NCBI GenBank assembly: GCA_937124965.1
Contig: CAKZLB010000016.1
Location: forward strand, 212,712-276,711
From: an uncultured Bacteroidota bacterium
GTDB taxonomy: Bacteria; Bacteroidota; Bacteroidia; NS11-12g; UBA9320
Reading direction: 5' to 3'
DNA: 64,000 bases
Part shown: piece after piece, positions 1,924 through 6,738 of the stretch
Layout of the letters: every line of letters starts with the position of its first letter
Numbering within the stretch: the stretch's first letter is position 1
Program-made: the position numbers and the translations under genes
The notes under the pieces: model-generated
Databases searched by the model: none
Told to the model about the DNA's origin: nothing
Seen by the model: the letters and a program-made list of their open reading frames with translations, nothing else

Positions 1924-4218
1924 ATGAATGATCTGTCAAATGCCGACTATTTGAAAGGGTTGAACGACCCTCAACGAGAAGCAGTAGTGCAAACGAAAGG
2001 CCCTGTGATGATTGTTGCCGGAGCGGGTTCAGGAAAAACTAGAGTGTTGACCTATAGAATTGCTCACATGATTGCTTCAGGCATAGACCCATTCAATATT
2101 CTCGCTTTGACTTTTACGAATAAAGCCGCAAAGGAAATGAGGAAGCGAATCGAGACTGTTGTTGGTGCTGAGGCTAAAAATATTTGGATGGGAACGTTTC
2201 ACTCAGTATTCGCCAAGATATTAAGATTTGAAGCCGAAAAGTTAGGATATCCTTCCAACTTCACTATATATGATTCAGATGATTCAAAAAGCCTGCTTAA
2301 AACGATCATCAAAGAGATGAAGTTGGATGACAAAGTATACAAGCCCAATGTGGTGCTGAATCGAATTAGTGCTGCTAAAAATAGTCTGATTACATATAAA
2401 ATGTATCAAAATGCAGATGAGTTGACTGCTTATGATTCAGTGAGCGGAAAACCAGAAATTGCTAAAATTTATCAGCTATATGCAAAGCGTTGTTTTATGG
2501 CTGGCGCAATGGACTTTGACGATTTATTGTTAAAAACATTCGAGCTGTTTACGAAACACATAGATGTGTTAAACAAATATCAGCACAAATTTAAATATGT
2601 GATGGTGGATGAGTATCAAGATACAAATCATTGTCAATACATGATTGTGAAGAAATTGGCAGCGGTAAACGAGAATATTTGTGTGGTTGGTGATGATGCT
2701 CAAAGTATTTATTCCTTTAGAGGGGCCACAATACGAAACATATTAAATTTTGAAAAAGATTATCCAGATCTAAAAGTGTTTAAGTTAGAGCAGAACTACA
2801 GATCTACTCAAACAATTGTAAATGCCGCTGGATCTATCATCGCTAATAACAAAGAGCAACTAGATAAGAATGTTTGGACGTCAAATCAGTTGGGCGAAAA
2901 AATAAAAGTAATTCGCGCTGTAACGGATAACGAAGAAGCGCGATTTATTGCTCAGGCAATTTTTGAGCAGAAAATGCAAGCTCAAGCAGCGCATGTGGAT
3001 TTTGCAATACTATATAGAACAAATGCTCAGTCACGTAGCCTGGAAGAAGCGTTGCGAAAGCATAACTTGCCGTATAAGATTTATGGTGGCTTATCATTTT
3101 ATCAAAGGAAAGAGATAAAAGACCTCATAGCTTACATGAGGCTTACCGTAAACCATAAGGACGAAGAGAGCTTAAAACGGATAATCAACTATCCTGCCCG
3201 AGGTATAGGTAAAACGACTTTGGATAAAGTTCAACTTCATGCATCGGAACAAGGGGTGTCCTGGTGGGACATAGTCTGTAATGCAGAGGTGTTTCCTAAT
3301 TTGTCAGGAGCCAAAACGAAGCTCGCCGATTTTGCTGTCAAAATTAAAAGTTTTGCTACGATGCTTGAATCGAAGGATGCATACGACTTGGCCATGCATA
3401 TAGCAAAATCAACTAACTTGTTAAAAAATCTTTACGAAGACAAGACTGTAGAAGGTATAAGTAGATACGAAAATGTTGTCGAACTGCTAAATGGTATTAA
3501 AGAGTTTGTTGAAGACGATACGAGTGAACTTGAGAAGAACCTTGGGGTGTATTTGCAAGATATTGCTTTGCTTACGGATTCAGACAAAGACGATGGCTCG
3601 GAGGATAAAATATCACTGATGACAATTCACGCAGCAAAAGGGTTGGAGTTTCCATACGTGTATATTTCTGGAATGGAAGAAAATCTATTTCCTAGTCAGA
3701 TGAGCTCGGGAAGCCGCAAAGAATTAGAGGAGGAGAGAAGATTGTTTTATGTGGGAATGACACGAGCGGAGCGTAAACTGACGTTATCCTACGCCAACTC
3801 ACGATTTAGATTTGGTCAATTGTTGCCTTGTGAACCTAGTCGATTCATATCAGAAATTGCAGAAGACTTCGTTGAGGTTGACAAAAAGTCTCTGTTAGCT
3901 AGAGACACGGATAAGCAAACAAGTCGCTTTGAGCGAAAAGGAAACACAGACGCGAAGCCCAGTTTTCAAAATAAGTACGGAAGAGCGAACCCAAAACGAA
4001 CTGCAAACAGCTTACCTCCACCGATTCAAAATTTTGTTCCAGACGATACAAAGAACTTAAAAGTTGATGATGTGGTCGAACATCAACGTTTTGGTAAAGG
4101 TGTTGTTGTTATTGTAGATGGTGATTTTGGTAATAAAAAAGCCACCATCGAATTTGAGCAGTATGGCAAAAAGCAATTGGTGCTGAAGTTTGCTAAACTT
4201 CGGTTTGTAGTTGACTAA
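1924..4218 (+). CDS. pcrA: UvrD/PcrA-type superfamily 1 DNA helicase
   Basis: A 3'-5' ATP-dependent DNA helicase of the UvrD/PcrA/Rep group, acting in repair and in removing proteins from DNA. Motifs in order: Q-motif region LNDPQREAV, Walker A GAGSGKT (33-39), LTFTNKAAKEM (motif Ia), VDEYQDTN (Walker B), GDDAQSIYSFRGA (motif III), QNYRST (motif IV), MTIHAAKGLEF (motif V) and VGMTRAERKL (motif VI). The C-terminal ~60 residues after a basic linker (VVEHQRFGKGVV and following) fit the Tudor-like tail of PcrA. At 764 aa it is full length. The gene ends tail-to-tail with the receiver gene, overlapping it by 4 bp. UvrD and PcrA cannot be told apart from sequence alone. Confidence 0.93.
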   Translation: MNDLSNADYLKGLNDPQREAVVQTKGPVMIVAGAGSGKTRVLTYRIAHMIASGIDPFNILALTFTNKAAKEMRKRIETVVGAEAKNIWMGTFHSVFAKILRFEAEKLGYPSNFTIYDSDDSKSLLKTIIKEMKLDDKVYKPNVVLNRISAAKNSLITYKMYQNADELTAYDSVSGKPEIAKIYQLYAKRCFMAGAMDFDDLLLKTFELFTKHIDVLNKYQHKFKYVMVDEYQDTNHCQYMIVKKLAAVNENICVVGDDAQSIYSFRGATIRNILNFEKDYPDLKVFKLEQNYRSTQTIVNAAGSIIANNKEQLDKNVWTSNQLGEKIKVIRAVTDNEEARFIAQAIFEQKMQAQAAHVDFAILYRTNAQSRSLEEALRKHNLPYKIYGGLSFYQRKEIKDLIAYMRLTVNHKDEESLKRIINYPARGIGKTTLDKVQLHASEQGVSWWDIVCNAEVFPNLSGAKTKLADFAVKIKSFATMLESKDAYDLAMHIAKSTNLLKNLYEDKTVEGISRYENVVELLNGIKEFVEDDTSELEKNLGVYLQDIALLTDSDKDDGSEDKISLMTIHAAKGLEFPYVYISGMEENLFPSQMSSGSRKELEEERRLFYVGMTRAERKLTLSYANSRFRFGQLLPCEPSRFISEIAEDFVEVDKKSLLARDTDKQTSRFERKGNTDAKPSFQNKYGRANPKRTANSLPPPIQNFVPDDTKNLKVDDVVEHQRFGKGVVVIVDGDFGNKKATIEFEQYGKKQLVLKFAKLRFVVD

Positions 4219-4586
4219 GCTGAAGCTCTAAATCGATCTACTATACCCCAAAGTTGTTCCATTCCATTTGGTTTTAGAATGTAGTCATTCATGCCGTAAT
4301 CAATAGCCTTAGGTAACACTTCCTCCTCAGGTAAGCTGGTAAAAGCAATGATTGGGACCTTTAAGTTGAATTTACGTACTGACTTGGCAACGTCAAATCC
4401 GTCGTTGTTAGGCATTTGAATGTCCATAAGAACTACGGTGTAGTCATTTTTGGAGATAAGTTCTAATGCTTGCTTTTTGTTCGTTGCAATGTCGAAAGAG
4501 ATACCCAGCTTATTAAACATAAAGCCGATGTACAAACTGTTAATCTCGTGATCGTCGATTAAAAGTAATTTGATGTTAGAATTCAT
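4215..4586 (-). CDS. Stand-alone response-regulator receiver domain protein
   Basis: A 123-aa single CheY-like receiver with no output domain. Visible residues are the acidic pair in LLLIDDHE, the phospho-acceptor Asp in VVLMDIQMP, the switch Thr in IAFTS and the conserved Lys in DYILKP. I chose the ATG at 4586, which directly precedes the first receiver strand; the frame is open up to 4724, but that extension shows no receiver features. It should pass phosphate in a relay or act through protein contact. No histidine kinase is nearby, so the partner is unknown. It may be transcribed with the gene starting at 5157, 145 bp upstream on the same strand. Confidence 0.85.
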   Translation of the reverse strand: MNSNIKLLLIDDHEINSLYIGFMFNKLGISFDIATNKKQALELISKNDYTVVLMDIQMPNNDGFDVAKSVRKFNLKVPIIAFTSLPEEEVLPKAIDYGMNDYILKPNGMEQLWGIVDRFRASA

Positions 4587-4731
4587 AAGTCGTAGTAATC
4601 TGTCTGCTTTGTTAATGACAATTGAGGTGCCAAAGCAACAGAAAATATATAAGTAGTTTAAAATAAGTAGTTTACGTATTTGTCGATATTGAGAAATATT
4701 CCCAAAAATGGAATAAACTCTCAAAAGGGTT

Positions 4732-5157
4732 TTAAATTTTCATATTTTTTAGATTGTTCCAAAGTTTAACTTTCAAAGATTTGTCGTTTTGGATATTCGT
4801 AAGACTGTCGAAGTAAAACATCATACGTTGACCTATATTGTGTGGTTCGTAGTAAGCTTTGTCGTTAATAAAACTAGAATCAAATATTAATATATTGACA
4901 AGTGTTGGCTCCCAGTGTTTGTCTATTGGCTGGCTAGCTTCAATTTTGCAGTCCTTGATACTTACCTGTTTTGCCGCTAAGATTTTAGAAAGAAAGTCTT
5001 CGTCTTTTTTAGATAATGGGGTGGATGGTATTCCAATAATTAGCTTGTAGTTGCTGTTAATTGGTTGAGTGTCCACCACTGCTTCTTGGTCTAAGTCGTA
5101 ATAATTGTCAAACAGTACATTTAGGTCTTCACCATCAATTATCCACGTTTCTTGCAT
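4732..5157 (-). CDS. Uncharacterised protein, possibly related to DNA polymerase III psi
   Basis: A 141-aa soluble acidic protein without signal peptide or membrane segment. Its centre reads as a beta-strand (YKLIIGIP), then LSKKDEDFLSKILAA, then a second strand (VNILIFDSS). This resembles the 'L...E..LL.KIL.A' arrangement in Bacteroidota proteins annotated as psi-like clamp-loader subunits, but that is recall of a pattern, not an alignment, and the rest does not match anything I know. A TATTTTTG -7 box on the minus strand (5169-5162) lies four bases before the ATG, supporting the start and suggesting a nearly leaderless message. A search with a psi (HolD) profile would settle it. Confidence 0.5.
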   Translation of the reverse strand: MQETWIIDGEDLNVLFDNYYDLDQEAVVDTQPINSNYKLIIGIPSTPLSKKDEDFLSKILAAKQVSIKDCKIEASQPIDKHWEPTLVNILIFDSSFINDKAYYEPHNIGQRMMFYFDSLTNIQNDKSLKVKLWNNLKNMKI

Positions 5158-5238: not shown

Positions 5239-5342
5239 ATGGGAATAAATTTAATCCTTAAAGTATAGCAAATTCAGTAATTCGTCATAAAAAAACTTAA
5301 AAAATTCAAAATGGGAACAAAAAATCTAAATATGGGAACAAA
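5239..5342 (+). repeat. Three copies of an ATGGGAA(C/T)AAA motif
   Basis: ATGGGAATAAA occurs at 5239-5249, and ATGGGAACAAA at 5311-5321 and 5332-5342. The last two are 21 bp apart, i.e. on the same face of the helix. Such spacing is common for binding sites of a dimeric or cooperative regulator. Related but weaker sequences occur at 5174-5190 and near 4690. The regulated gene could be the OmpA gene (plus) or the 5157 gene (minus). Confidence 0.4.
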
Positions 5343-5380
5343 TTTGACAGGGTGAAATCGTAAGGCATTGATAATCAGTA

Positions 5381-5520
5381 CTTATGATAATGGCATATGC
5401 TTCGCTTAAACCATCATGTAACTTTCGAGAGAAAGAGCACATGGTTAATAATTTTCATCATAAGTAGTAGTTTAGTATTTTATCTTTGATTTTAAGCCCT
5501 GACCTATATGGTCGGGGCTT
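5381..5520 (+). ncRNA. Candidate structured non-coding RNA or mRNA leader
   Basis: Nested complementary segments are visible: CTTATGAT (5381-5388) with ATCATAAG (5457-5464); AACC-ATC-ATGT (5409-5419) with ACATGGTT (5439-5446), leaving ATC bulged; and CTTTC-GAGA-GAAAG (5422-5435) as a tip hairpin. Downstream, AAGCCCTGACC pairs with GGTCGGGGCTT (5494-5520) through a TATAT loop, with one G-U pair that is only allowed on the plus strand. No T-run follows, so it is a poor intrinsic terminator. A TATCTTTG box at 5481-5488 could instead start a leader beginning with this hairpin. No plus-strand gene lies between 4218 and here to need a terminator. Confidence 0.4.
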
Positions 5521-5582
5521 GTCATTTGTACCAATTCACAAAACTACTCCATTGGGAGTTATTATCGAAAAATAAAGAACTG

Positions 5583-5590
5583 TAACTTTG
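5583..5590 (+). promoter_or_regulatory. Putative -7 box (TAACTTTG) of the OmpA gene
   Basis: TAACTTTG fits TAnnTTTG and lies 14 bp before the first ATG at 5605. The nearest upstream TTG (5552-5554) is 28 bp away, longer than the usual ~20, so the -33 element is unclear. Confidence 0.45.
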
Positions 5591-5604: not shown

Positions 5605-6738
5605 ATGATTCACCGATGCTGCATATCTATTGCTGACTATCCGTTAAGAGGGATGTGCCTGTTCTTCTTTTGGTTTGTTGCATCCATGCTGAATTCTCAA
5701 GTTGCTTTATCTCAATCGTATGAGCAAAAAACAATAAGCGTTTATTTTCCGTCAGATGGAGACAAGATTACACCAGAGTCAAAAACTAAGATTAGACAAG
5801 CTTTCTTGGAGATTCATCCGCGTATCATACGAGAAGTATATATAGAAGGTCACACAGATAGCGATGCTTCTTTAAGTTATAATATATCACTGTCAAATCG
5901 AAGGGCAGACAATGCACGCATATATTTACTATCCCAAGGCGTTAGAGAGTCTATAATAAAATTAGGTGCTTTTGGTGAAAGTAAACCAGTTAGCAGAAAG
6001 AAGGCCATGAATCGTCGTGTGTTGATGACTTTTGTTTATGAAACTGAGGAGGAGCCTAAAGAGCGGTTTGAAATTACTACAGGAAACGCAAAGTTTATTG
6101 AAGTAGTCACATTCAACGCCCAAACTAAAGAAAAACTTCCTTGCGATTATGTGGTCGAAAATAATAACAGAAATAGCTTTGCGAGAACGGGAGGGGATGC
6201 AACGTGTCTTTTTGATCGATCCAGGTTTCCTAATCTACATGTGATTTTTTCTAAATCTGGGTTCTTGAACGAAGCTGTGGTAATTGACGAGACCAAAGCT
6301 CGAAATGCAGGAGATACATTAAGACTTAAGGTATATTTGAAACCAGTTGAAGTGGTTCAGAAACTTCGCTACGATCATATCTATTTCTATACGGACACCG
6401 ATGACTTCAAACCTGAAGCTAAGAGAGAGCTAGAGAAATTGGTGCAAATGCTTGACGGTGATCAAAATTTATATGTAGAGATTCAAGGTCACATGAATTT
6501 CTCGGAAACAAGACAAGCTAATATCTTGCAACGTATCTATAATCATGATTTGTCGCACAAAAGGGCCAAAGCTGTTTATCGCTATCTGATAACTAGAGGT
6601 ATTGATAAAGACAGACTGACGTATAAAGGTTTGAGTAACTTTAGAATGATTTACCCAAATCCAAAAAACGAATCAGAGGCAGATCAAAACAAACGGGTAG
6701 AGGTTTGGACATTGCAATTAGTCGAAAATTCAAACTAA
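5605..6738 (+). CDS. Periplasmic protein with two OmpA-like domains
   Basis: A 377-aa exported protein. The signal peptide core is MCLFFFWFVASMLNS, with cleavage likely near ALSQS; the ATG at 5653 is an alternative start. Residues ~45-145 form an OmpA-like peptidoglycan-binding domain with the meso-DAP-binding Asp in GHTDS and Arg in SNRRADN. A middle region (~160-240) looks like a carboxypeptidase-regulatory-type beta sandwich. A second OmpA-like domain (~255-370) ends NKRVEVW. In this copy GHTD has become GHMN, so the ligand Asp is lost, although the HKRAKAV Arg remains. It probably anchors the envelope to peptidoglycan through the first domain only. It stands alone, converging on the porin gene 5 bp away. 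Confidence 0.85.
   Translation: MIHRCCISIADYPLRGMCLFFFWFVASMLNSQVALSQSYEQKTISVYFPSDGDKITPESKTKIRQAFLEIHPRIIREVYIEGHTDSDASLSYNISLSNRRADNARIYLLSQGVRESIIKLGAFGESKPVSRKKAMNRRVLMTFVYETEEEPKERFEITTGNAKFIEVVTFNAQTKEKLPCDYVVENNNRNSFARTGGDATCLFDRSRFPNLHVIFSKSGFLNEAVVIDETKARNAGDTLRLKVYLKPVEVVQKLRYDHIYFYTDTDDFKPEAKRELEKLVQMLDGDQNLYVEIQGHMNFSETRQANILQRIYNHDLSHKRAKAVYRYLITRGIDKDRLTYKGLSNFRMIYPNPKNESEADQNKRVEVWTLQLVENSN

Follow-up and report, generated by a model that had tools for sequence, protein, structure and literature searches.

To our knowledge, few small RNAs (sRNAs) of Bacteroidota have a known target. A comparable circuit is described in Vibrio, where transcription of the Qrr sRNAs depends on sigma-54 and enhancer-binding activators, and where a sponge RNA, QrrX, base-pairs with Qrr and inactivates it (PMC10162802, PMC9732341). 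Within Bacteroidota, the only sigma-54-linked sRNA that we met in the literature is Rfp36 of Flavobacterium psychrophilum, a putative regulatory RNA with a sigma-54 (SM4) promoter whose promoter group also holds dnaK and lon; the passages that describe Rfp36 give no target or sponge for it (PMC9723704). Rfp18 of the same species is a structured sRNA conserved in Flavobacterium that affects metalloprotease mRNAs and has its predicted pairing region in the third stem-loop (PMC9723704). The FopS sRNAs of Bacteroides thetaiotaomicron act on SusC-like transporters, are antagonised by RbpB and repress the translation of mRNAs, indicating that Bacteroidota sRNAs are able to act at this level (PMC11697453).

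We analysed a 64,000-nucleotide stretch of DNA from an uncultured Bacteroidota bacterium (the window), which lies on contig C16 of a draft genome of 79 contigs (G000). Positions 5417-5527 of the plus strand are best read as a small RNA gene that stands on its own and spans about 110 nt; we call it sRNA-1 (Table 1). The gene is almost certainly real and represents a new sRNA family. For the scheme as a whole, we consider it likely that sRNA-1 is a sigma-54-driven, trans-acting RNA that silences a response regulator and is itself sequestered by a sponge. Like Qrr and QrrX, this system combines a short RNA with a sigma-54-type promoter and a second RNA complementary to it, recognised here from sequence alone. 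Unlike QrrX, which has a LysR-type activator, the putative sponge has a sigma-54-type promoter, as does sRNA-1 (PMC10162802, PMC9732341). The system also belongs to a different phylum, and an Rfam scan of the window returned no match at the gathering score, Qrr included; at E 10 nothing was convincing, the top sub-threshold match being rnk_leader with 22.6 against 50 bits. Because of this lack of an Rfam match, and because QrrX is driven by a LysR-type regulator, we did not file sRNA-1 as a Qrr member. A tRNA search of the window found none. Compared by description, sRNA-1 resembles Rfp36 as a putative regulatory RNA of Bacteroidota with a sigma-54 promoter and Rfp18 as a conserved structured sRNA (PMC9723704), and it resembles FopS as a Bacteroidota sRNA proposed to repress translation (PMC11697453); it differs from Rfp18 and FopS in the respects given above.

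Table 1. Features of the sRNA-1 locus and its neighbours, in window coordinates.
Feature	Position	Strand	Basis or remark
sRNA-1 gene	5417..5527	+	start estimated from promoter, end from terminator; covariance-model match 5422-5527
5' hairpin CTTTC-GAGA-GAAAG	5422..5435	+	changes on both sides in 5/5 pairs
Unpaired conserved core	5439..5489	+	complementary to response-regulator leader and to putative sponge
Intrinsic terminator hairpin AAGCCCTGACC-TATAT-GGTCGGGGCTT	5494..5520	+	changes on both sides in 5/11 pairs
Sigma-54 -24/-12 promoter ATGGCATATGCTTCGC (GG-N10-GC)	5390..5405	+	position before hairpin, shuffles
Tandem activator (bEBP) half-sites TGGGAAC	5312-5318, 5333-5339 (5312..5339)	+	21 bp apart
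Double-OmpA protein gene	5605..6738	+	downstream neighbour in 15/16 sRNA genomes
TAACTTTG box, likely separate promoter of OmpA-like gene	5583..5590	+	read from sequence
Neighbouring single-domain response regulator, not predicted target	4215..4586	-	PF00072; core pairing not above shuffles
Sigma-54-like promoter TTGGCACCTCAATTGTCA of gene 4215-4586	4616..4633	-	TTGGCAT-N5-TTG, same place in G001, G002, G004
Activator-like dyad TTCCATTTTTGGGAA of gene 4215-4586	4699..4713	-	read from sequence

The initial annotation had described a single structured element over 5381-5520, built of three nested complementary segments followed by an 11-bp hairpin with a G-U pair. Its helices are indeed in the sequence: an outer helix of 8 bp (5381-5388 with 5457-5464), a bulged middle helix and an inner stem of 5 bp with a GAGA loop (5422-5435), all three present in the minimum-free-energy fold, as well as the 11-bp hairpin at 5494-5520. 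This stretch folds well on the plus strand (-38.7 kcal/mol, z -3.8, with 0 of 200 shuffles equally stable). The minus strand also folds well (z -5.4), so the strand is not given by folding energy alone.

Comparison with relatives confirmed the inner hairpin and the 11-bp hairpin by covariation. In an alignment of sRNA-1 with 15 distinct rows, which was fitted to the covariance model and so favours the structure, and in which rows L018 and L013 are loosely fitted, 96.2% of cells were paired, compared with 33-52% in slid controls, and the covariation score was 0.55, compared with 0.27 after shuffling (0 of 500 shuffles reached 0.55). Variants of the 5' hairpin can be read straight from the sequences: CTTTC-GAGA-GAAAG, GTACC-GCAA-GGTAC, GTATT-TTCG-AATAC, CTCTC-GTGA-GAGAG and CCTTT-GTGA-AAAGG. 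A T-run stands behind the 3' hairpin in 13 of the 17 copies, whereas the window and its three nearest relatives have a weak one, with TTGTCATTT instead. Between the hairpins, the core is nearly invariant outside the genus g3. Two hallmarks of a trans-acting sRNA, its own promoter and a Rho-independent terminator, were found at the sequence level, the T-run of the window being weak.

The outer helix fared differently. Its 5' arm falls ahead of the estimated RNA start, next to the upstream side of the -24 element. At the equivalent place, which was set by the -24 box and could not be assigned in 3 of the 17 copies, the complement to ATCATAAG amounts to 8 of 8 letters in the window, 7 in L078, 6 in L009-L011 and 3-4 in nine further copies; when the whole 55 nt upstream are considered, the best complement is no more than 6 of 8 in 12 of the 17 copies and 7-8 in the window and four others. 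These counts indicate that the outer helix is not a shared feature, with possibly a weak trace of it in close relatives. Thus, pairing is conserved for both hairpins and largely not for the outer helix. What stands is a structured RNA conserved on the plus strand, as seen from covariation and from conservation far above that of the neighbouring protein. The locus fits a trans-acting sRNA gene, equipped with a sigma-54 promoter and a terminator of its own, better than it fits a nested structure over 5381-5520. The annotated TATCTTTG box is present at 5481-5488 (replaced by TATCTCAG in L018 and L019) but lies inside the RNA and is not its promoter. As had been noted, no plus-strand gene lies just upstream, 4215-4586 and 4732-5157 both being on the minus strand.

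sRNA-1 has so far been found in a single family of uncultured Bacteroidota. A DNA search of 39 genomes gave strong matches in the same genus and family, and in one relative (G009) the stretch 5418-5520 is 97% identical, as opposed to 49% for the OmpA-like protein. Searching 38 genomes of the family with a covariance model built from 7 copies returned 17 copies in 16 genomes at E below 1e-4, 10 of them outside the model-building set. Among public contig records, a 20-nt stretch of the core, TAAGTAGTAGTTTAGTATTT, had 15 exact matches, and the element is present in 14 of these; the records of element-bearing relatives are mostly from uncultured Bacteroidia or Bacteroidetes, and a Bacilli record (L073) was dropped because the rest of the element is absent. 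Viral contigs gave no matches. Within the order, 108 genomes were scanned for the core pattern, 38 from this family and 70 from family f2, for which this was the sole search. No convincing copy emerged in f2, where matches with two mismatches (G030, G096) came without the rest of the element. Two genomes hold more than one copy. G008 has two tandem intact copies (L014, about 1159-1261 and 1488-1590). In G011, a divergent copy on contig G011:C9 (L127, core near 2798 on the reverse strand), which came up as a weak model match, joins the first; it has core, terminator and, further upstream, its own GG-N10-GC promoter, TGGCACGTTACATGC.

Taken alone, the 3' hairpin resembles an ordinary terminator, and the 14 weak model matches that we inspected in the 38 family genomes (L113-L126, E 0.002 to 1) were mostly terminators of other genes, none with the core. 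It is nevertheless extremely improbable that sRNA-1 too is a mere terminator, or palindromic DNA, and does not act as a regulatory RNA, given the near-invariant 50-nt core, the covarying 5' hairpin, and the promoter and dyads at a fixed distance.

sRNA-1 is very probably under sigma-54 control. The promoter ATGGCATATGCTTCGC places the predicted RNA start near 5417. The GG-N10-GC pattern occurs 12-16 nt before the hairpin in 10 of the 15 copies outside g3, the window included (mean 0.2 and maximum 2 of 15 in 300 shuffles), and 14 of the 15 have TGG[CT]A at the -24 place (mean 0.3 and maximum 2 after shuffling); in 5 of the 15 the -12 GC is imperfect (relaxed). The two g3 copies (G006, G013) carry a TAnnTTTG box, the sigma-A -7 box (PMC9723704), where the others have the sigma-54 promoter. 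As rpoN is present in 37 of the 39 genomes searched, including the window's own, the presence of sigma-54 does not discriminate between them.

Further upstream, where the window has mainly right half-sites, the relatives have full dyads of the form TTCYM-N5-KRGAA. Averaged over the 15 copies, the dyad score peaks at 7.8 and 6.9 at two positions separated by 21 bp (all positions: 3.7 +/- 0.7), a profile that is partly circular because the motif was read from the same sequences. The first, unrefined motif occurred with <=2 mismatches in 8 of the 15 upstream regions (mean 0.9 and maximum 4 in 100 shuffles). In the eight genomes searched, the exact dyad TTCCC-N5-GGGAA appears once or never per genome and is so rare that no regulon can be defined from it. 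A conserved element around TGATAATCA (window 5369-5377 and relatives) lies between the dyads and the promoter, about 13 nt before the -24 box.

Across six genomes, the strict sigma-54 pattern showed no overall enrichment, with 22 matches and 26 for the reversed control. Individual strict matches in the family lie ahead of protein quality-control and T9SS motor genes: shortly before dnaK in G000 and, by the same protein start, in G004 and G002 (L197, L198, L214), before ftsH (L194) and lon (L211) in G008, and before gldL (L202) in G000. The sigma-54 group of F. psychrophilum includes dnaK and lon along with the putative RNA Rfp36 (PMC9723704).

In 15 of 16 genomes, the element immediately precedes ompA and shares its strand; in some of them the ompA start seems to be no more than a few nucleotides away. 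Because of this position, the strongest rival reading is that of a cis-acting leader or attenuator, in which the hairpins form the 5' part of the ompA mRNA and OmpA expression is governed by how often the terminator is read through. Several observations argue against this, at least as the sole role. The two tandem copies in G008 have no ompA within the 12-kb stretch read, and ompA in the window has its own TAACTTTG box at 5583-5590, likely a separate promoter, TAnnTTTG being the sigma-A -7 box (PMC9723704). Moreover, an attenuator needs no invariant unpaired core, which the response-regulator leader described below does explain, and the core pairs with the ompA start no better than expected by chance (92 of 300 shuffles equally strong). 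We consider a leader role unlikely and favour a free-standing sRNA.

The neighbours of sRNA-1 did not emerge as targets. Pairing with the OmpA gene, the gene at 4732-5157 and the neighbouring response regulator was at chance (z -1.4 to 0.6), as was pairing with a minus-strand stretch at 4630-4693 that appeared complementary by eye (61 of 300). The sigma-54-type promoter and activator-like dyad of that response-regulator gene recur in G001, G002 and G004 (window 4215-4713, minus strand).

The mRNA of another, conserved response regulator is most probably the target of sRNA-1. Although genome-wide matches to core complements were not above a reversed-pattern control, the core-complement search singled out, in G003 and G007, the leaders of one and the same response-regulator gene. 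In the window's genome, this gene (G000:C55:30210) encodes a single-domain response regulator of about 155 amino acids, a lone receiver domain (PF00072); it is followed by a gene that we take to be pdxA-like, and a receiver-kinase and a 7TMR-DISM kinase are encoded about 5.5 kb away. At E 1e-25, 14 of 38 genomes yielded an ortholog, that of G042 being a fragment and left out of the pairing test. The arms of the core are CAUGGUUAAUAAUUUU and (CAUCAU)AAGUAGUAGUUUAGUA.

In all nine orthologs examined outside g3, the core and the leader form a predicted duplex across the start codon, with energies of -21.0 to -33.7 kcal/mol. Shuffling rarely gave a duplex as strong (0 to 13 times in 1000 for leaders, 0 to 10 times in 1000 for cores), and of 40 window ORF starts, none was as strong for eight of the nine orthologs and one for G008. 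In the G000 leader, the paired stretch runs from -43 to the ATG. By contrast, none of the four g3 orthologs (G006, G013, G015, G019) pairs above chance, with 305 to 847 of 1000 shuffled leaders as strong. In this core-only test, G003, G015 and G019, in which no sRNA was found, were given the window's core and G006 and G013 their own shorter cores; the pairing windows and the restriction to the core were chosen after the full-length result. With full-length RNAs the signal is weaker: six of the nine stay at 0-2 of 200 shuffles as strong, and G008, G043 and G011 rise to 8, 11 and 34 of 200. As the target was found through a complement search, G003 and G007 are not independent evidence; the other seven orthologs are.

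The arm and its site are also absent together. In G006 and G013, the sRNA is without the start-codon arm CAUGGUUAAUAAUUUU and the leader is without its complement. Elsewhere, five of the 16 sRNA genomes (G002, G005, G014, G041, G048) yielded no response regulator at E 1e-25, a sixth (G042) has the fragment, and G003 (84% complete) has the target site with no sRNA found.

Pairing with the response-regulator leader would explain why the core is nearly invariant. The same letters also read as a short frame (ATGGTTAATAATTTTCATCATAAGTAG, MVNNFHHK), open in 14 of the 17 copies and with one residue changed or missing in L015 and L017, as if the element were a short mRNA for a conserved peptide. However, the frame is shifted in L016, the ATG arm is missing from L018 and L019, and silent changes are absent wherever the frame is intact, even though hairpins and flanks vary. 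Since these letters are the complement of the response-regulator start region, we regard a peptide as very improbable and retain the pairing core as the explanation of their conservation.

Other candidate mRNAs were less convincing. Those in G008 (L267) and G009 (L269) were modest, with 3 and 10 of 300 shuffles as strong, and those in G001 (L254), G043 (L263) and G008 (L256) were not above shuffles (34, 71 and 153 of 300). A leader in G012 reached -33.0 kcal/mol with 0 of 300 shuffles as strong, yet no sRNA was found in that genome. This leader (L268, about 3974-4023, plus strand) belongs to a 49-aa ORF and has a near full-length core complement, with activator-like dyads upstream.

A second intergenic RNA contains a complement of the core, and we are moderately confident in naming it a putative sponge of sRNA-1. 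It lies beside icmF in G000, G001, G002 and G004, in two tandem copies each; in G009 it adjoins a gene that reads as the same icmF, and a sixth example lies elsewhere in G011. Sigma-54-like promoters precede it in five of these six genomes, G011 being without a clear one. In the complement-bearing sense, the icmF-side copies have, by eye, TGGCA[CT]-N5-TTG ahead, dyad-like sequences further up and a terminator behind. We folded eight copies from five genomes against the core (the G002 copies were seen and left out), and the best site of each gave -25.6 to -29.2 kcal/mol, a strength equalled by 0-2 of 300 shuffles. The one or two additional sites in each copy gave -12.9 to -25.2 kcal/mol and for the most part did not exceed shuffles of the whole RNA (means -17 to -21), which slightly lowered our confidence in a sponge. 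In the other 10 sRNA genomes, the patterns used did not show this RNA, a result that does not prove its absence. In the open-access papers searched, as covered by titles and abstract openings, we found neither sRNA-1 nor any RNA sponge in Bacteroidota.

Pairing energies are symmetric and both RNAs have sigma-54-type promoters, so the roles might be reversed, with the RNA upstream of icmF as the regulator and sRNA-1 as its decoy. However, sRNA-1 was found in 16 genomes compared with 6 for the second RNA, for which the search was less thorough. The core of sRNA-1 also hardly varies and independently matches an mRNA across its start codon, whereas the second RNA is variable. We therefore think the reversed arrangement quite improbable and continue to treat sRNA-1 as the regulator.

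In the mechanism that we propose, an activator on the tandem upstream dyads would allow sigma-54 RNA polymerase to make the sRNA-1 transcript of about 110 nt, consisting of the 5' hairpin, an open core of about 50 nt and the terminator. The two arms of the core would pair with the response-regulator leader and cover the start codon, which would block translation. The RNA made upstream of icmF from sigma-54-type promoters, with one strong core complement and weaker repeats, may in turn sequester sRNA-1. Because the target is a lone receiver encoded near kinases, a block of its translation would be expected to switch a phosphorelay. We are evenly divided on the fuller proposal of a self-contained circuit, independent of Qrr and QrrX, in which sigma-54 and one activator would induce both the silencing sRNA and its titrating sponge, with the target in a multi-kinase phosphorelay, and from which g3 would depart with its TAnnTTTG box and its missing start-codon arm and complement.

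The analysis offers explicit predictions: a defined sRNA, a start-codon target site that accompanies it from genus to genus, a probable binding site for the activator, and a probable sponge. One genus provides an example of the RNA and its target without the same pairing arm. With these predictions, a post-transcriptional phosphorelay switch would become testable outside Proteobacteria.
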